A stretch of 64,000 nucleotides of DNA from the NCBI GenBank assembly GCA_018692315.1, contig JABHKC010000158.1:1-64000 (forward strand), in the 5' to 3' direction. The position numbers were made by a program, and so were the translations under genes. This document shows, piece after piece, positions 39,319 to 48,965 of the stretch; position 1 is the first letter of the stretch; each line of letters begins with the position of its first letter. This stretch comes from Bacteroidota bacterium (lineage in GTDB: Bacteria; Bacteroidota; Bacteroidia; Bacteroidales; JABHKC01). Below the pieces are notes generated by a model. It searched no databases and was not told the DNA's origin. It saw only the letters and a list, made by a program, of their open reading frames with translations.

Positions 39319-39797
39319 CTAAATTCTATTTTTAAAATTTCTCAAAATCCGCTCCCTATCCTCATTTTTCTTATTTGATTTGTGGAATATTTCAATCAAA
39401 ATTATTTTTTGTTCTTCCTCATATAAAGCATAAACAATTCTAAATCCTGAATTACGTCCCTTGCCCTTAAAACTTCTACTAGCTATTTTTTTAATATTAA
39501 TGATACAAGTTTGTATTCCTAATCCATCTATTCTAAAACTAAAAGGAGGATTCTCATTTGGCCTAATATTTAAAACTTTCTTAAGGGGACTTCTAAAAAT
39601 AGTAAATTTCAAGGCGTAAGAAATTTAAAAACCGGAGTTTACTATTGTAAATGAGGATTTTAAAATTGCGAAACAACGAAGAAATTTGCATTTTTAGAGG
39701 GTTCCTTAACAATTTCAACATCCTCAGCAATTGTTCTGTACTTTCTCGAAAGCTTTTTGATGTCTTTCCTAAATTCAACAAGTTCGTCTATTGTCAT
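39319..39797 (-). pseudogene. RelE-like toxin of a Panacea TA pair, disrupted by a MITE
   Basis: The ATG at 39797 overlaps the antitoxin stop (ATGA) and encodes MTIDELVEFRKDIKKLSRKY and onward to EIVK, then enters foreign sequence and stops after 45 codons. The remainder of the gene resumes at 39580 as KKVLNIRPNENPPFSFRIDG... and runs to 39321, with the toxin-like end SGFRIVYALYEEEQKIILIE. Removing 125 bases (a 121-bp element plus one copy of the TTAA duplication) restores one continuous 117-codon frame. The toxin is of the RelE/ParE-like sort often paired with Panacea antitoxins. It should be non-functional here unless the C-terminal frame (TTG at 39612) is translated separately, which would not give a full fold. 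Confidence 0.88.
39581..39709. mobile_element. ~121-bp MITE-like element with TTAA target duplication
   Basis: The element spans about 39585-39705 and is flanked on both sides by TTAA (39581-39584 and 39706-39709); a 5-bp CTTAA reading is also possible. Its ends are imperfect inverted repeats of about 26 bp: GGGGACTTCTAAAAAT... on the left and, complemented, GGAACCCTCTAAAAAT... on the right, both continuing to AAATTTC. The interior also pairs (TTTAC / GTAAA around 39638-39651), so one strand can fold into a long hairpin. There is no coding capacity. It needs a transposase from elsewhere. It interrupts the toxin gene. Confidence 0.85.
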
Positions 39798-40591
39798 AAA
39801 GCACCTTCGTTTTCATCGTAATTCCTGACTGAATAAGGTGATTCTCTATAAAAAGCTAATTCATAATCAATTGCTTCGCCTTCTTTCGAAGCCAACCAAG
39901 GAATATCTTTATGCGAATATTCACTTATTGCCGAAGCAGACCAATCGGAGAATTGGGCTATTACCTTGTCTATAACATCTTTCTCGCTGGCACTGAAACT
40001 CTTCAAATTTGGTTTAGTAAGCGGCAGATATCTTTTTTGTGGATATCCATGATAATCTACATTAATTCTTTGTAATTGCTTGTTGGCAATCATTTGATTA
40101 ATAATAATATCAAGTTTCTGCGGTACAGGCCCGTATGGCAATTTCCTATATTCAGCTCCGGTCAAATGTTCTTCGTAAATCTCATAATAATTAAAATCGG
40201 AGAAATAAAATAATTTGTAAAGTAGAGTTTCGCCAACATTTGGTTTGCCAGCACATTTTTCAAGAATATATAATAGAATATTTTTGAATTTGTTTACTCT
40301 CAGTTCAGGTATAGAAATCCTAATTTTTGGCTCCTCACTGGTTTCTTTTTCGTCAGCAATAATTTCAGACAAACTGAAATCTGAAGATAATAGTTTATCA
40401 ATTGATATTAAGAAAACATCTGCTATTTTTTTTAGTTCAATCGCTGAAAGATTTCTTTTTCCTAACTCAATGTGTGTAAGTGAAGGGCGAGAAATTTTTA
40501 ATAATTTTGCTAAATCATTCTGTGAATATCCTCTATTTTTTCGTAAATCGAAAATTCTTTGTCCAATTTCTTTTTGTGTTATTGTCTTCAT
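39794..40591 (-). CDS. XRE-type HTH plus Panacea (DUF4065) antitoxin
   Basis: A 265-residue protein with an N-terminal Cro/C1-type helix-turn-helix (residues 8-65, IFDLRKNRGYSQNDLAKLLKIS, in pieces, with PSLTHIELGKRNLSA) and a C-terminal Panacea/SocA-like DUF4065 domain (about 105-255, LLYKLFYFSDFNYYE, GAEYRKLPYGPVP, SEYSHKDIPWL). Panacea domains serve as versatile antitoxins paired with unrelated toxins. The HTH part probably autoregulates the operon. Its stop overlaps the start of the disrupted toxin gene, so this antitoxin is now an orphan. Confidence 0.9.
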   Translation of the reverse strand: MKTITQKEIGQRIFDLRKNRGYSQNDLAKLLKISRPSLTHIELGKRNLSAIELKKIADVFLISIDKLLSSDFSLSEIIADEKETSEEPKIRISIPELRVNKFKNILLYILEKCAGKPNVGETLLYKLFYFSDFNYYEIYEEHLTGAEYRKLPYGPVPQKLDIIINQMIANKQLQRINVDYHGYPQKRYLPLTKPNLKSFSASEKDVIDKVIAQFSDWSASAISEYSHKDIPWLASKEGEAIDYELAFYRESPYSVRNYDENEGAL

Positions 40592-42433: not shown

Positions 42434-44242
42434 TTATGTACGGTATTTTTCCGACTGGATATTGTACAAGTCAGCATATTTTCCTTTAAGGTGCATTAAT
42501 TCTTCGTGAGTCCCCGATTCAATTAAATTTTCCTTGTCAAGCACATAAATTTTGTCAGCCATTTTAACAGATGACAGTCGGTGACTTATAATAATTGCAG
42601 TTTTATTCTTTGTAGCATTTTCAAAATTTTGGAGAATTTCGTATTCCGATCTCGGATCTATTGAACTTGTGGGTTCATCGAGAACAATAATTTGAGAATT
42701 TTTGTAAAAAGCCCTTGCTAGTGCAACTTTCTGATATTCTCCAATGCTGAGTTCCTCTCCATTTTCAAACAATTTTCCAAGGACACTTTCATACTTCTTT
42801 GGTAAATTTTCTAATTTCAAATCAATATTTGCAGTTTTTGCTGCTTTTCTAATCTTATTATCGTCATGGTTTTCAGCAATATTTCCAAAAGCAATATTTT
42901 CTTTTGCCGATAAATGATAGTGAGCATAATCCTGAAAAATGACACTTATATTTTCTCTGATTTCTTCAGTATTCATTTCTTCAATATTTACTTCATCAAA
43001 CAAAATTTCACCCTTAGTGGGTTTATAAAATTTACACAAAAGCTTTATGAGTGTAGTTTTTCCGACACCATTTTCGCCAACAATAGCAATTGTTTCATTT
43101 ACTTTTATTTGAATATTGATATTTTTTAAAACAAATTTATTCCCGTTTGGATATTTGAAATCTAAATTCCTAATACTAATTCCTTTACAAATTTTTGATG
43201 GAAAAGGAGTTGAATGTTTTGGTGAAACAATTTGCTGTGGCAGATTCAAAAACTCAAATAAGTTATTTAGAAAAAGATTATCTTCAAAAAGTCCTGCGAT
43301 TCCTGAAAAAAGACTACGTAGAAAATCGAATCCTTTTTGAAATGCCAAGAAATACATTACCAAATCACCAAGGGTAATTTCGCCCCTGATGGCTTTATAA
43401 CTTATGTAAGCATATGATCCGAAAACTGTTAGAGCTGTTGTAGTTTCCGAGACAAGGCTAATTAGAGTTTGCTTTTTAACAATTTTGAATTTTTCTTCCC
43501 GAAGAAGTTTTTTTAGATTTTTAAAACGTTCGATGAATATTCCGGACAATCCAAAAAGTCGAACTTCCTTGGCAAATCGTAATGACGTTAATAAGCCATT
43601 GTAATAGTCTGTTTTTCTTTCTGTAGGAGTTTCGGATCTTTTCCAATCGTAAATTTCTTTGGCAAATTTCAATCGAATCAAAATTCCCGGAAGGGTTGCT
43701 ACAAGTAAAAGAATTGAAACCACCCAATGAAGCGTCATTATTAGACCAAAAATTAGCATTAGCGAAATAATGTTTTGCAAAATGTAAACAAGATTGTTTA
43801 CTATTGAGTTTGGTCGGAAAGGAGCTTCAATTCTGGCTCTATGAAGAATATCGTAATAATTTGAGTTTTCAAAATATTGTAAATCTAATTGTGAAGTTTT
43901 TTTGTGGATAATACTATACATATAATCGCTCACAATTTGCGATTGATGTTCTCTTATTAAAGCACTTACAGATTTCAGTGCAGAGTTAATGAAGAAAATT
44001 ATTCCTGCAAAAATTACGAAATACAAAACATTATAAAATGCTGATTCTTTATCGTTAGCAAGGGCTCCTTCTGTAACTGAATCAACAATCAATTTCATTA
44101 AAAAAATAATTGCTAATGGTAAAATACCTTGAACGATAGTAATGAAAGAATTTATGATAGTCCAAAAAGGAGCAGCTTTCCAGGCGAATTGTAATGCTCT
44201 TTTCAAATATAAATATTTTTTTATTTCAGTTCTTGGCTTCAA
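42434..44242 (-). CDS. ABC exporter, fused permease and ATPase, of the PqqD/HprK-like cluster
   Basis: A 602-residue half-transporter. Residues 20-330 form a six-helix type I exporter domain. The nucleotide-binding domain shows Walker A GENGVGKTT, a Q-loop at SVIFQDYAHY, signature LSIGEYQKVALARA (variant of LSGGQ), Walker B IIVLDEPTSSID and the H-loop ISHRLSS. There is no N-terminal C39 peptidase, so any leader must be cut by another enzyme. It is the last gene of a four-gene operon and overlaps the signal-peptidase-like gene by four bases. The cargo is inferred to be the product of the cluster. Confidence 0.9.
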   Translation of the reverse strand: MKPRTEIKKYLYLKRALQFAWKAAPFWTIINSFITIVQGILPLAIIFLMKLIVDSVTEGALANDKESAFYNVLYFVIFAGIIFFINSALKSVSALIREHQSQIVSDYMYSIIHKKTSQLDLQYFENSNYYDILHRARIEAPFRPNSIVNNLVYILQNIISLMLIFGLIMTLHWVVSILLLVATLPGILIRLKFAKEIYDWKRSETPTERKTDYYNGLLTSLRFAKEVRLFGLSGIFIERFKNLKKLLREEKFKIVKKQTLISLVSETTTALTVFGSYAYISYKAIRGEITLGDLVMYFLAFQKGFDFLRSLFSGIAGLFEDNLFLNNLFEFLNLPQQIVSPKHSTPFPSKICKGISIRNLDFKYPNGNKFVLKNINIQIKVNETIAIVGENGVGKTTLIKLLCKFYKPTKGEILFDEVNIEEMNTEEIRENISVIFQDYAHYHLSAKENIAFGNIAENHDDNKIRKAAKTANIDLKLENLPKKYESVLGKLFENGEELSIGEYQKVALARAFYKNSQIIVLDEPTSSIDPRSEYEILQNFENATKNKTAIIISHRLSSVKMADKIYVLDKENLIESGTHEELMHLKGKYADLYNIQSEKYRT

Positions 44243-44721
44243 GATTTGACTCTAATTTGACTTTGCATTTTCCAATATATTCTAACAAAAATGTATATAA
44301 TGACTAAGACTATTGAAGTTTTTGAAATTATATAATTTAGTTTTATAAAGTATTCAGTTTCAATATCTACGGTCTTGTTTTTTCTGTCGAAAGATACAAT
44401 TTTTCCAATGTAATTTTCCTCTGAGATAGGACAATCTTTTTTTAACAATGAATCTCCTTTTGTAATTAGTGATAGTTTTTTATTTCGATAAATAATTTTA
44501 AGCAATCTATGAGCAATTAATTTTTCTGATGTTTTAAAAACTATTACGTCTCCAATTTTCAAATTTGAAATGCATATTTTCTTAACTAAACCAATATCTC
44601 CATTTCTTAAAAAGGGATACATACTTCTTCCGCCTAATCGAATTTTTAGTTCTTTACCTTGATCTAAAAAATCAACTGTAGCATTTTGAAGATTTTGCAA
44701 ATCAATGTTATTTTTATTCAA
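44239..44721 (-). CDS. S24/S26 family peptidase, Ser-His signal-peptidase type
   Basis: A 160-residue protein with the signal peptidase core: GRSMYPFLRNGD (catalytic Ser), AHRLLKI (histidine as in SipW/ER-type enzymes instead of the bacterial lysine) and TKGDSLLKKD. A single C-terminal membrane helix (about 128-150) would anchor it with the catalytic domain on the cytoplasmic or membrane face; the topology is uncertain. It overlaps the HprK-like gene by 8 bases and the exporter gene by 4, so all are translated together. Its likely job is processing of the cluster's peptide; this is inference. Confidence 0.85.
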   Translation of the reverse strand: MNKNNIDLQNLQNATVDFLDQGKELKIRLGGRSMYPFLRNGDIGLVKKICISNLKIGDVIVFKTSEKLIAHRLLKIIYRNKKLSLITKGDSLLKKDCPISEENYIGKIVSFDRKNKTVDIETEYFIKLNYIISKTSIVLVIIYIFVRIYWKMQSQIRVKS

Positions 44722-45625
44722 AATGGTTTTCTTTTAAATATTGAATAACAGAGCTATCGGGCAAAAAACCAAGCTCGTGAATTGGAATTTTGTTTGTGAT
44801 ATCTGAAATAACATTCAGCATTTTATTAATTATTTTTTCATCGTAATTGTGCTGGATACAAAATGCCATGAATCGGGTAATTGCCTCAACACCCATTAGT
44901 TTTTTCGAAACATTTTGTTTGTTGTGATAAATAAGAAAAATATTGTTAAGAACAACTTTTTTTGAATAGTCGTTTTCGTAAACCGGTGTGTTGAAAATGC
45001 AATATTTATTTTCTATTTTTCTGATTATTAGCCTATCATCGTGAATTATTTTAGCAGAATTATTTTCACAAATCTTTGCAATAGTACTTTTCCCTGCTCC
45101 CGAAAAACCACTAAATAACATTCCGTTTTCACCAAATTTTATTCCAGAGGCATGAATCATTATTGCATCATTTTTCAATGTCAAATAATACAAAATGAGT
45201 GGCAGCATAGGATATTCAAATGGATTTATTTTTGAAATTTGTTGGTCGGAATATATATTCCAATTTTCAGATTTTAGGTCGAAACAAAGAGCCAAATTTG
45301 GAGAGTCTAAAGAACTTAAACTGGAGCTTAGGACAATATATTTATTTTTGAATTTACGAATGCTCCATAAATGTGATGATATTTCTTTCTTATTCCCTGA
45401 AATTTCTTCAATATATGGAGCTTTGAAAACTTCTTTGCTTTCTATAAATTCAGAGGGAATTTTTGCATGAACTTTTAGTGTAAGATCGTAGCTATTGCTT
45501 GTTTCAATAAGGAAATTATTGAGAATCGATTCTGTAAATAGTTTTATATTCTTACCTATGGCATGAACTAAAATATTGAAATTAGCTATTCGAATTGCAA
45601 ATTTTGCATGTGTATTTTTTGCCAT
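44714..45625 (-). CDS. HPr kinase-like protein
   Basis: A 303-residue protein with an HprK-like P-loop (MLFSGFSGAGKSTIAKI, about residues 150-166), a following IIHDDRLIIRK segment and no N-terminal HPr-kinase regulatory domain. Such HprK-related proteins occur with PqqD and nucleotidyltransferases in the HPr-rel-A group and in some lasso-peptide clusters, where one family member phosphorylates the precursor peptide. It follows pqqD-like by 29 bases. The substrate is unknown. Confidence 0.87.
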   Translation of the reverse strand: MAKNTHAKFAIRIANFNILVHAIGKNIKLFTESILNNFLIETSNSYDLTLKVHAKIPSEFIESKEVFKAPYIEEISGNKKEISSHLWSIRKFKNKYIVLSSSLSSLDSPNLALCFDLKSENWNIYSDQQISKINPFEYPMLPLILYYLTLKNDAIMIHASGIKFGENGMLFSGFSGAGKSTIAKICENNSAKIIHDDRLIIRKIENKYCIFNTPVYENDYSKKVVLNNIFLIYHNKQNVSKKLMGVEAITRFMAFCIQHNYDEKIINKMLNVISDITNKIPIHELGFLPDSSVIQYLKENHFE

Positions 45626-45654
45626 AATTAGTCGATTGAATTTATCGCTGAAAT

Positions 45655-45939
45655 TTATACCACATCAAGCATTTTTTCGAGTTTTTTTACAAAATTTTCA
45701 AGGTCCAATTTTGCCGTAGCGGTATCAATCTCATATTCCTGGCAAAGCAAATTCAGTATTTCTTGAAGGCAATTTTTTCCATCAATGTTTTCCCAGATAA
45801 ATGCCGCTACTTCTTTAAGTGTGAAAACATTTGTCATGTCGCCAACATTCCGATTTATTGGAACTAATATATATTCGTTTCCTTCTTTTCTTGATATTAT
45901 TTTGTTGCTATGTTTGTAAATAATATTTAATGAATCCAT
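45655..45939 (-). CDS. PqqD family peptide-binding protein
   Basis: A 94-residue protein with the PqqD/RRE winged-helix pattern: EYILVPINRNVGDMTNVFTL (two strands), LKEVAAFIWENIDG and EILNLLCQEYEIDTATAKLD. PqqD domains hold the leader of a ribosomally made peptide and present it to modifying enzymes. It is the first gene of the minus-strand operon, 43 bases from the divergent nucleotidyltransferase gene. Confidence 0.92.
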   Translation of the reverse strand: MDSLNIIYKHSNKIISRKEGNEYILVPINRNVGDMTNVFTLKEVAAFIWENIDGKNCLQEILNLLCQEYEIDTATAKLDLENFVKKLEKMLDVV

Positions 45940-45951
45940 TCTAAATTATAT

Positions 45952-45959
45952 TAATTTTG
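45952..45959 (+). promoter_or_regulatory. Possible -7 box of the nucleotidyltransferase gene
   Basis: TAATTTTG (45952-45959) fits TAnnTTTG and lies 23 bases before the ATG at 45983. No good TTTG -33 box is present at the expected distance, so support is partial. The gap also has to hold the divergent operon's promoter. Confidence 0.35.
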
Positions 45960-45982
45960 TGCAAAATTAGCACAATATCTAA

Positions 45983-47161
45983 ATGATTGAGTACAGCAAT
46001 ATTACTAATTTTAATTTATCTGTTGAAGATAAATTCTTGCTCGAATGTTTGAGAGATAAAGACAGAAGCAATTTTGCGGAGATATCTTCAGGTTCTAAAT
46101 CAGAGTTGAATTGGAAATTGATTGCTAAAAAATATACTGAAAATGGCATTTCTCAATTATTATTCAAAAAACAAAAACTCATTGATTTGCCAATTGAAAT
46201 TGCAGAATATTTTAAAAAGCAATATTATGCTACTCTCGCAAAGAACACCTTAATTTATAACAAATTAGATGAAATAATTTCTGAATTTAGAAAAGAAGAT
46301 ATCGAATTAGTTTTATTGAAAGGATGTCTGCTGGCAGAAACGGTTTACAATGATATTGGGCAACGTCCGATGGGCGATTTTGATATTCTCATTGAAAAGA
46401 AAAATTTAGAAAAATCATATATAATTCTCACAAAATTAGGCTATAAAAAATTGCATAATAAAAATGAATTTATTGAAAAATTGCAATTGACATATAATTA
46501 TGGGTATGTAAAAGATATGCAACTTTTAGAGCTGCATTGGGATTTATTGCCACCACATTGTATTCATTCAATTAATATTGATGACTTTTTTAGCACAAAA
46601 CAAAAAATTAAAATTTCAAATTCGGAAACATATATGTTTGCTCCTGAATTTTTATTGATTCATTTATGTTTGCACCTGAGCAGAAATTTTGGTGCAGGAG
46701 GTGTGCGACTATGTTGGTATGTAGATATTAAAAAGACTAGTGAGATTTTCAAATCGACGATTAATTGGGACGTTTTACTTGAAAAGTCAAACACTTTTTC
46801 CATTACTAATATAGTCTTAAGTCATCTTTTTATTGCCTATAAATACTTTGACACAGAAATTCCAGCCCATCTGTTTGCAAACAAAAACTTCAATAATGTT
46901 GAACAACTTTTTCTTAAATTGTATAGTCTTGGAGTTCAAAAGAAACTTGCAAAAACTGATCTTAGCTATTATAAAAAAGTTATGCACATCGAAGGATTTT
47001 TGAATAAAATAAGATTTTTGATGGGAAACCTTTTTCCTTCTGTGGATTATATAAAATCAAAATATTCAATAAAATCGAATCTTTACGCCTATTTCTTCTA
47101 TCCTATTGAAATATTTTTACTTATTAAAAAGGTAAAAATCAATCTTTTTAAATTATCCTAA
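45983..47161 (+). CDS. Nucleotidyltransferase family protein (PF14907-like)
   Basis: A 392-residue cytoplasmic protein. The nucleotidyltransferase core shows VLLKGCLLAETVYNDIGQRP, then MGDFDILIEKKNLEKS (Asp-x-Asp metal pair), LQLTYNYGYVKDMQLLELHWDL (two pieces) and PEFLLIHLCLHLSRNFGAGG. This is the pattern of uncharacterised PF14907 enzymes that accompany PqqD/HprK-like gene sets. It diverges from the pqqD-like gene, so it belongs to the same cluster by position. The transferred nucleotide and the target are unknown. Confidence 0.87.
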   Translation: MIEYSNITNFNLSVEDKFLLECLRDKDRSNFAEISSGSKSELNWKLIAKKYTENGISQLLFKKQKLIDLPIEIAEYFKKQYYATLAKNTLIYNKLDEIISEFRKEDIELVLLKGCLLAETVYNDIGQRPMGDFDILIEKKNLEKSYIILTKLGYKKLHNKNEFIEKLQLTYNYGYVKDMQLLELHWDLLPPHCIHSINIDDFFSTKQKIKISNSETYMFAPEFLLIHLCLHLSRNFGAGGVRLCWYVDIKKTSEIFKSTINWDVLLEKSNTFSITNIVLSHLFIAYKYFDTEIPAHLFANKNFNNVEQLFLKLYSLGVQKKLAKTDLSYYKKVMHIEGFLNKIRFLMGNLFPSVDYIKSKYSIKSNLYAYFFYPIEIFLLIKKVKINLFKLS

Positions 47162-47231: not shown

Positions 47232-48965
47232 ATGATTAAAAAATTAATGCTATTCGCTTTGTTTATTCTATCTATATTAGAAATATTTAGCCAAGGTTTG
47301 CCACATAAAATGACAGATTTTGAAAAACAGCAAATGCCACATTATTTAAACTCAATAGTTTCGAGAGGATTCACTCAACCTCCTGTTTCTCAAGTACGCA
47401 CAGTTGCAGAATGGGAAGAGATGGATGCAATTATCATATCTTGGGAATCTTTTAGTTCTGTTTTGACAGAAATTGTTAGATATGCAAAAGAAGAATGCAA
47501 AGTTTTTATAGTCTGTTCAGATTCAAATTCTGTAAAAAATACATTAACATCAAGCAATGTTAGCTTGACAAATTTGGAATTTTTAATTGAAGCTTCAAAC
47601 AGTGTTTGGATTCGTGATTATGGTCCAAATAATGTTTACACAAATGAAGTAGATTCTTTAATAATTGTTGATTGGATATATAATAGACCGCGGCCAGACG
47701 ATGATGTAATTCCTGAAGCTGTTGCTAATAAATTGAATGTTCCTATTTATGAAACAACTCAGAGCCCATACGACATTATTCATGCCGGAGGAAATTTCAT
47801 GTCAGATGGTTTCGGAACAGCCTTTTCATCAAATCTTGTTTTGGAAGAAAATCCTGGAAAAACCGAATCAGAAATTGATAGTGTTATACATAAGTTTATG
47901 GGTATTGAAAGGTATGTGAAAATGACTAATTTGCCATACGATGGAATTCATCACATAGATATGCACATGAAATTGATTGACGAAGAGACTTTACTTGTAG
48001 GAGAATATCCAACAGGAATTTCCGATGGCCCACAAATTGAGGCAAATTTACAATATGTATTAAGTAATTTTAATTCGATTTTTGGCACACCATATAAAGT
48101 TATAAGAATTCCAATGCCCCCTGAAAATGGGAATTATCCAAATGGATTGTGGAATGGAGCTGATTATCGAACTTATACAAATTCATTAATTATTAATAAG
48201 ACAGTTTTGGTTCCAACCTATGAATATCAGTACGATACAACAGCACTAAGAATCTATAAAGAAGCCATGCCAGGCTACAATATTGTTGGGATTAATTGCA
48301 ATGCAACAATTCCGTCAAGCGGAGCAATTCATTGTATTAGCCACGAAATTGCTACTAATGACCCACTCTTAATTTCTCATCAGCCTCATCTATCACTAAT
48401 TGATTCTTCTACAGAAAACTATTTAATCGAAGCAAAAATAATACATCGTTCCGGCATTCAAAATGCCAGCATTTATTATAGAAATGACACTATAAATCCA
48501 TATTTGTCTGCCTCAATGAGCTTATTAAATCTGGCTGATAATATATGGTCAGGAGAAATTACATCTCAGAATTTAATGGACACTATATATTATTACATTG
48601 AAGCACAATCCAATTCAGGGAAAACTCAAGTTCGACCAATAGTTGCACCTGCAGGATACTGGAAATTTACTGTTGCAAATAATACAATAAATATTGCTTC
48701 TAAAGATTTCCGAAATAATTTCAATATTTCTTATTCAAAGGCTTCCAAAAAGGTATTTATTACAATGAATAGTGATAAATTCCAAAAAGCAAGTTTGTCG
48801 ATTTTCGATATTTTAGGAAAAGAAACTATTCTTTCAAATCCAAAAATAATTCATGAAGGATTAAATGACTTATCATTTTCAACCAGCAAATTCAAGCAAG
48901 GATTATATTTTGTTGTATTGAAAACCGAAAGAAATGCTTATACTGAAAAAGTGATTATTAACTAA
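47232..48965 (+). CDS. T9SS-secreted peptidylarginine/agmatine deiminase-like enzyme
   Basis: A 577-residue protein with signal peptide (MIKKLMLFALFILSILEIFSQ). The guanidine-modifying domain (about 40-390) keeps the family residues: WIRDYGPNN with Asp129, YDGIHHIDMHMKL with His240/241, and SGAIHCISHEI with Cys368, near the positions of the Porphyromonas gingivalis enzyme PPAD (Asp130, His236, Cys351). An Ig-like region (about 400-480) and a type A sorting domain (last 75 residues, FKQGLYFVVLKTE) follow. It should hydrolyse arginine side chains or agmatine outside the cell. It starts 70 bases after the nucleotidyltransferase gene. Confidence 0.9.
   Translation: MIKKLMLFALFILSILEIFSQGLPHKMTDFEKQQMPHYLNSIVSRGFTQPPVSQVRTVAEWEEMDAIIISWESFSSVLTEIVRYAKEECKVFIVCSDSNSVKNTLTSSNVSLTNLEFLIEASNSVWIRDYGPNNVYTNEVDSLIIVDWIYNRPRPDDDVIPEAVANKLNVPIYETTQSPYDIIHAGGNFMSDGFGTAFSSNLVLEENPGKTESEIDSVIHKFMGIERYVKMTNLPYDGIHHIDMHMKLIDEETLLVGEYPTGISDGPQIEANLQYVLSNFNSIFGTPYKVIRIPMPPENGNYPNGLWNGADYRTYTNSLIINKTVLVPTYEYQYDTTALRIYKEAMPGYNIVGINCNATIPSSGAIHCISHEIATNDPLLISHQPHLSLIDSSTENYLIEAKIIHRSGIQNASIYYRNDTINPYLSASMSLLNLADNIWSGEITSQNLMDTIYYYIEAQSNSGKTQVRPIVAPAGYWKFTVANNTINIASKDFRNNFNISYSKASKKVFITMNSDKFQKASLSIFDILGKETILSNPKIIHEGLNDLSFSTSKFKQGLYFVVLKTERNAYTEKVIIN

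Follow-up and report, generated by a model that had tools for sequence, protein, structure and literature searches.

A Bacteroidales locus resembling linear polyphosphorylated peptide clusters, with candidate precursors encoded in trans beside type IX secretion cargo genes

The first 64,000 nucleotides of contig JABHKC010000158.1 from a Bacteroidota bacterium (assembly GCA_018692315.1), hereafter the window, contain five adjacent genes for a PqqD-type protein, an HprK-like kinase, an S26 signal peptidase, an ABC exporter and a PF14907 nucleotidyltransferase. We propose, with a probability of about 85%, that this locus encodes the common machinery for maturation and export of a system for ribosomally synthesized and post-translationally modified peptides (RiPPs) in Bacteroidales, which resembles that of the linear polyphosphorylated peptides (LPPs) and serves peptides encoded in trans. 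It is classed as LPP-like rather than as a strict LPP system, because the extended LPP leader motif is absent although all gene-level features are present.

In the proposed mechanism, the PqqD-type protein would recognise five precursors, whose genes lie elsewhere in the genome, by binding their YxKP leader, and the kinase would phosphorylate a Ser or Thr of the precursor. The PF14907 transferase may add a second modification on the phosphorylated residue. Cytoplasmic leader cleavage is predicted for the S26-type peptidase, with the cut close to an invariant Ser/Thr located 20 residues after the leader Tyr (position +20), and the MsbA-like transporter would export the linear, Pro/Asp-rich core.

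Precursor peptides

The first-pass annotation of the window had noticed no precursor gene in or next to the unit. This holds for the complete 64 kb, since scanning all six frames for the leader motif produced a single chance match, inside a 950-residue frame. The annotation had also suggested that homologous neighbourhoods be inspected for a conserved small open reading frame (ORF), and such a frame exists: in many relatives an ORF of 37–76 residues separates the PqqD and kinase genes (e.g. at loci L033, L035, L044, L045, L047 and L051). A precursor profile (A1) built from 13 of these intergenic ORFs detected five homologues in the source genome with E values from 3e-17 to 6e-11. None of them is in the window; one lies 14.9 kb past its end on the same contig and four are on other contigs, as anticipated by the earlier suggestion of a possible substrate gene outside the locus. 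One of the five reads MKKPYSTPKIETIIIDTDISLVMMSTPPPDPDKSMMNQEWEKEREKERKRDSFASPFE. The source genome has one PqqD gene and one PF14907 gene, both within the window. Consequently, one locus must serve all five precursors, if it serves them.

Precursor and kinase occur together. Of 295 genomes of the same order, 26 match the kinase strongly (E up to 1e-15), and 22 of these have a precursor, compared with 6 of the 269 others (p=6e-24). Starting from the leader Tyr, an alignment of the 69 distinct precursors needs no gaps and shows a leader of the form YxKP...D..IS.xM.[S/T]. Conservation is 99% for Tyr at position 0, 100% for Pro at +3, 99% for Asp at +11, 81% for Ile at +14, 77% for Ser at +15 and 100% for Ser/Thr at +20. 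The core is variable and rich in Pro, Gly and Asp, often with P-F or P-Y at its end. Three of the source-genome copies have nearly identical DNA in the upstream tail and the leader, whereas their cores have diverged; a near-identical leader with a diverged core is typical of RiPP precursors. NCBIfam contains no family for these peptides.

Predicted maturation and export enzymes

The PqqD profile matches leader-binding domains of known structure, namely TbiB1 (2e-10), PbaB1 (2e-10) and LppB (8e-7). Together with the leader-bearing precursor family, these matches support the earlier assignment of the PqqD-type protein as the component that presents a leader peptide. In LppB, D70 holds the leader Tyr and F74 the leader Pro (PMC13381572). 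The comparison with this LPP protein, which rests on one chain (PDB 9x8z), places D79 and F83 of the window protein at these two positions, and both residues are well conserved. The position of LppB N33 is occupied by Lys in the window protein and by Asn in most relatives. A peptide-binding groove, which the first-pass annotation had singled out for checking, thus appears to be preserved at the residue level, as far as sequence can tell, because D79 and F83 match D70 and F74.

A profile of 24 kinase homologues matches HPr kinase structures at 1e-5. Residues H158, K179, D196 and D197 are conserved among the 24, with D196 missing in one; the corresponding His-Lys-Asp-Asp residues are needed for phosphorylation by lasso kinases (PMC9266682). 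In the PF14907 protein, a DxD motif at residues 132–134 is kept in 9 of 9 homologues. The exporter has its best NCBIfam match to MsbA (4e-83), below the cut-off of that model.

The signal peptidase scores over the TIGR02228 cut-off, and its Ser33, His71 and Asp90 are kept in 23 of 23 homologues. It has one predicted membrane helix, at the C-terminus (residues 128–146), and no N-terminal helix. At 18 of 69 related kinase loci, in Paludibacter-type relatives, peptidase and exporter form a single ORF in which the peptidase part is N-terminal, like that of peptidase-containing exporters. These fusions and the lone C-terminal helix suggest a cytoplasmic orientation of the peptidase domain. The first supposition, that an exporter and a separate peptidase would finish a secreted product, is supported as well.

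Related loci

A first kinase search covered 295 genomes from the same order and 296 from the phylum, and the neighbourhoods of the matches were fetched (31 loci). For a second collection, a kinase sub-alignment was used as the query and yielded 69 named loci, partly from the same assemblies as the first set; the single kinase sequence of the window gave no matches there. Most of the 69 loci are from metagenome assemblies of Bacteroidales, and others are from cultured Carboxylicivirga strains. In C. mesophila JCM 18290 and C. sediminis JR1, the PqqD, precursor, kinase, S26 and ABC genes are contiguous. The second collection has S26 beside the kinase at 66 loci, PqqD at 65 and ABC at 56, and a precursor within 8 kb of the kinase at 27. 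Since PqqD and S26 adjoin the kinase so regularly, the gene unit is not a chance arrangement. No additional enzyme family recurs beside the core genes at the 31 and 69 loci.

At L203 (10116 onward) and L209, a helix-turn-helix (HTH) protein, a 525-residue protein and two further ORFs separate the kinase gene from S26 and may form a mobile cassette. A cousin set, consisting of S26, a protein of 369–372 residues, ABC and an HprK-like gene, is present at L057 (genome G002) and L060 (genome G350) in other Bacteroidia, with PqqD too at L057. An A3-type precursor was not found in G002 and a weak one was found in G350; the cousin loci possibly represent a further sub-system.

Proximity to type IX secretion cargo

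Loci with a trans precursor were analysed in 16 genomes. Of these 31 loci, 27 have a testable ORF upstream of the precursor; the 134 other ORFs of the same loci served as controls. The C-terminus of the upstream ORF matches the type A sorting model of the type IX secretion system (T9SS) at E<=0.01 in 23 of 27 cases, compared with 10 of 134 controls (p=3e-16), in a count where paralogous tail–precursor cassettes are non-independent data points. With the Pfam T9SS model instead, 18 of 27 upstream ORFs and 10 of 134 controls match (p=1e-10). The median gap between cargo and precursor genes is 32 nt. The adjacency is found in 13 of the 16 genomes, mostly of different families, and the gene immediately upstream of PqqD at cis loci often encodes a giant T9SS protein. 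As a caveat on the adjacency, the source genome has an unusually large cargo repertoire, with at least 150 matches to Por_Secre_tail. Since a T9SS cargo gene immediately precedes most precursor genes, the peptide and a particular surface protein are probably expressed together, and the peptide probably serves that protein.

The canonical PNP motif is present in 0 of about 21 cargo tails next to precursors, compared with 8 of 9 other T9SS tails of the same loci, and the sole PNP-less tail among those nine adjoins another precursor copy. The precursor-adjacent tails are preceded by NRFxLHF, and 11 of 27 show partial likeness to the type C signal of ChiA, versus 3 of 134 controls. A decayed precursor-like ORF in the source genome (L161, G000:C231), KKYYTKSEIISIKINTYEKTKT, is located directly behind a non-PNP tail (773–1093) and is likely a pseudogene.

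A control search found the non-PNP tail in 7 of 15 genomes with the kinase and in 4 of 15 without it. The claim that this tail is specific to the present system was dropped because kinase-less genomes have it as well. In the kinase-less genomes G305, G315 and G300 (loci L260, L248, L256 and L251), a PID-CTERM gene lies 3–99 nt behind a non-PNP T9SS tail. The products of these genes have a signal peptide and a C-terminus composed of PIDGG, a helix and basic residues (NF046080), with three of the four at or over the cut-off. This suggests a general rule by which a cargo gene is followed by a gene for a small exported peptide. That two unrelated kinds of small peptide follow the same cargo class speaks for a putative partner role of the peptide.

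The adjacency could also be incidental to an LPP-like machine, arising by hitch-hiking or cassette duplication, in which case the peptide would be an independent signal or an antimicrobial. We regard this as quite plausible, only a little short of an even chance. Three of the five source-genome copies indeed belong to a duplicated tail–precursor cassette, precursors L068, L107–L109, L113, L114 and L119 have no T9SS neighbour, the non-PNP tail occurs in kinase-less genomes, and the LPPs of Bacillota do without T9SS. Against it stand the recurrence of the tight adjacency in genomes of mostly different families and the PID-CTERM gene, which can take the same place where the kinase is missing. A more specific form of the partner role is offered tentatively and with a chance clearly below even. 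Each giant cargo protein with a non-PNP, type C-like tail would bring its own LPP-like peptide, one trans locus would mature and export all of them, and the modified peptide would be required for anchoring, chaperoning or activating its cargo at the cell surface.

Gene order in the window

The five ORFs and their positions in the first-pass annotation were correct, as were the overlaps of 8 and 4 bases, the 29-base gap and the 43-base gap to the divergent gene (Table 1).

Table 1. Genes and intergenic site of the LPP-like locus in the window.
Feature	Position	Strand	Assignment	Family match
ABC exporter gene	42434–44242	(-)	MsbA-like (LppD-like)	ABC_tran 2e-31
S26 signal peptidase gene	44239–44721	(-)	archaeal/SipW-type, LppS-like; predicted leader peptidase	TIGR02228 2e-19
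HprK-like kinase gene	44714–45625	(-)	LppK/PadeK-like; predicted precursor kinase	
PqqD–kinase gap	45626–45654		29 bases, empty here; site of the precursor gene in relatives	
PqqD-type RiPP recognition element (RRE) gene	45655–45939	(-)	LppB/B1-like; predicted leader binder for trans precursors	PF05402 9e-16
PF14907 nucleotidyltransferase gene	45983–47161	(+)	LppN/PsmN-like, divergent	PF14907 8e-49

The gene adjoining the nucleotidyltransferase gene (47232–48965, plus strand) encodes a protein resembling peptidyl-arginine and agmatine deiminases with a T9SS type A tail, and a rhomboid gene is next. On the other side (39319–40591, minus strand), an HTH and Panacea (SocA-like) antitoxin-type protein is encoded, followed by short ORFs; together they may form a toxin–antitoxin pair.

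Evidence against the assignment and other pathways

Several observations weigh against the LPP-like assignment. Phosphorylation and cleavage in the Bacteroidota members are predictions from the gene content. The similarity of the kinase to HprK is weak by sequence, with a match to Pfam HprK of 6e-4 that falls below the cut-off, and AlphaFold models from single sequences were of unusable quality (pLDDT 38 for the kinase and 48 for PqqD). The nucleotidyltransferase is in reach at only 29 of the 69 kinase loci, and six genomes contain a precursor without a strong kinase match. The precursors share nothing of the extended LPP leader consensus except YxxP and a hydrophobic residue at +5. Finally, position +20 is Thr in 30% of the precursors, whereas LppK rejects Thr. 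This invariant residue may directly precede the cut, which would match Thr-1 of the LPPs and fit the proportion of Thr, or it may be the phosphate acceptor.

A degenerate or split lasso-peptide pathway of the paeninodin type, with the cyclase and B2 protease encoded elsewhere in the genome, is very improbable. The clusters of paeninodin and pseudomycoidin (PadeA-K-C-B1-B2-D-N) do have in common with our locus a PqqD-type B1 protein, a kinase with the HKDD residues, a PF14907 nucleotidyltransferase, an ABC exporter and a YxxP leader, and one precursor weakly matches the paeninodin leader model (E 0.042). However, they contain a cyclase C and a B2 protease. Neither an Asn-synthetase-like cyclase nor a B2 protease was found among the scanned neighbours of the window genes or as a recurring family at the related loci. 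An archaeal-type signal peptidase, in some relatives even fused to the exporter, replaces the protease, and by eye no ring-closing Asp/Glu is conserved at core positions 7–9. A radical-SAM pathway was rejected likewise, since no such enzyme lies among the scanned neighbours of the window genes and none recurs at the related loci.

Least probable of all is a non-peptide or housekeeping substrate for the PqqD/HprK/S26 set, with small ORFs that are unrelated to it: the HprK and PF14907 families do have other roles, and flanking genes at some related loci look like housekeeping genes (RNase R, IspG, CysS and TsaD, named by eye from their N-termini), but the precursor co-occurs with the kinase, is located inside the operon and has a leader motif that suits the groove residues of PqqD.

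Significance

The first-pass annotation had considered a new chemistry. This is unneeded, as linear polyphosphorylated peptides were shown in 2026 to be the product of the same five-enzyme set; by analogy with these, the chemistry itself would be that already described for Bacillota. Four features, namely the phylum, the trans arrangement, the peptidase–exporter fusion and the coupling to T9SS, appear undescribed in the literature searched, in which no relevant link between T9SS and RiPPs was found at the level of titles and abstracts. The LPP-like assignment would extend LPP-type chemistry to a second phylum. The published family, whose role is not known, was termed restricted to Bacillota, in a main text without any word starting with "Bacteroid" (PMC13381572). 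Dispersed precursors served by one locus would be missed by cluster-based RiPP mining, and the coupling to T9SS cargo would be a first genomic clue to the function of such peptides. The cultured Carboxylicivirga strains with a contiguous gene set make the chemistry directly testable.

Comparison with known systems

The kinase shares its fold with the HPr-rel-A and other HprK-related kinases of types A and B. However, it scores 15.8 bits against TIGR04352 and 35.4 bits against TIGR04355, far below the cut-offs of 200, and the HPr-rel-A label of the first-pass annotation was rejected. The PID-CTERM genes resemble our precursor genes in coding for a small exported peptide directly behind a cargo gene with the same non-PNP tail. 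They differ in the signal peptide and the PIDGG-helix-basic tail of the product and in the maturation route.

The closest known system is the LPP cluster lppA-K-B-S-D-N of Paenibacillus alginolyticus (Popov et al., 20 May 2026; PMC13381572). It comprises a discrete RRE, an HprK-like kinase, a SipW-like leader peptidase, an MsbA-like exporter and a nucleoside triphosphate transferase, without a cyclase. The window locus has all five enzyme types and likewise no cyclase. In both systems the precursors have a YxxP leader, a constant N-terminus and a variable C-terminus, as seen in the 69 precursors here. The LPP leader is YxxPxVLxHQxIxFETxxS, with the cut after Thr at +15 and phosphates on Ser at +18 (PMC13381572). 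By contrast, the distance from Tyr to the conserved Ser/Thr is 20 in our precursors, and ...[IL]D..IS.xM.[ST] stands in place of ...HQxIxFET. The Bacteroidota system further differs in its precursors, which are often multiple and encoded in trans, and in the fusion of S26 to ABC in some members. Finally, the LPPs are linked to capsule genes, whereas the peptides described here are linked to T9SS cargo.

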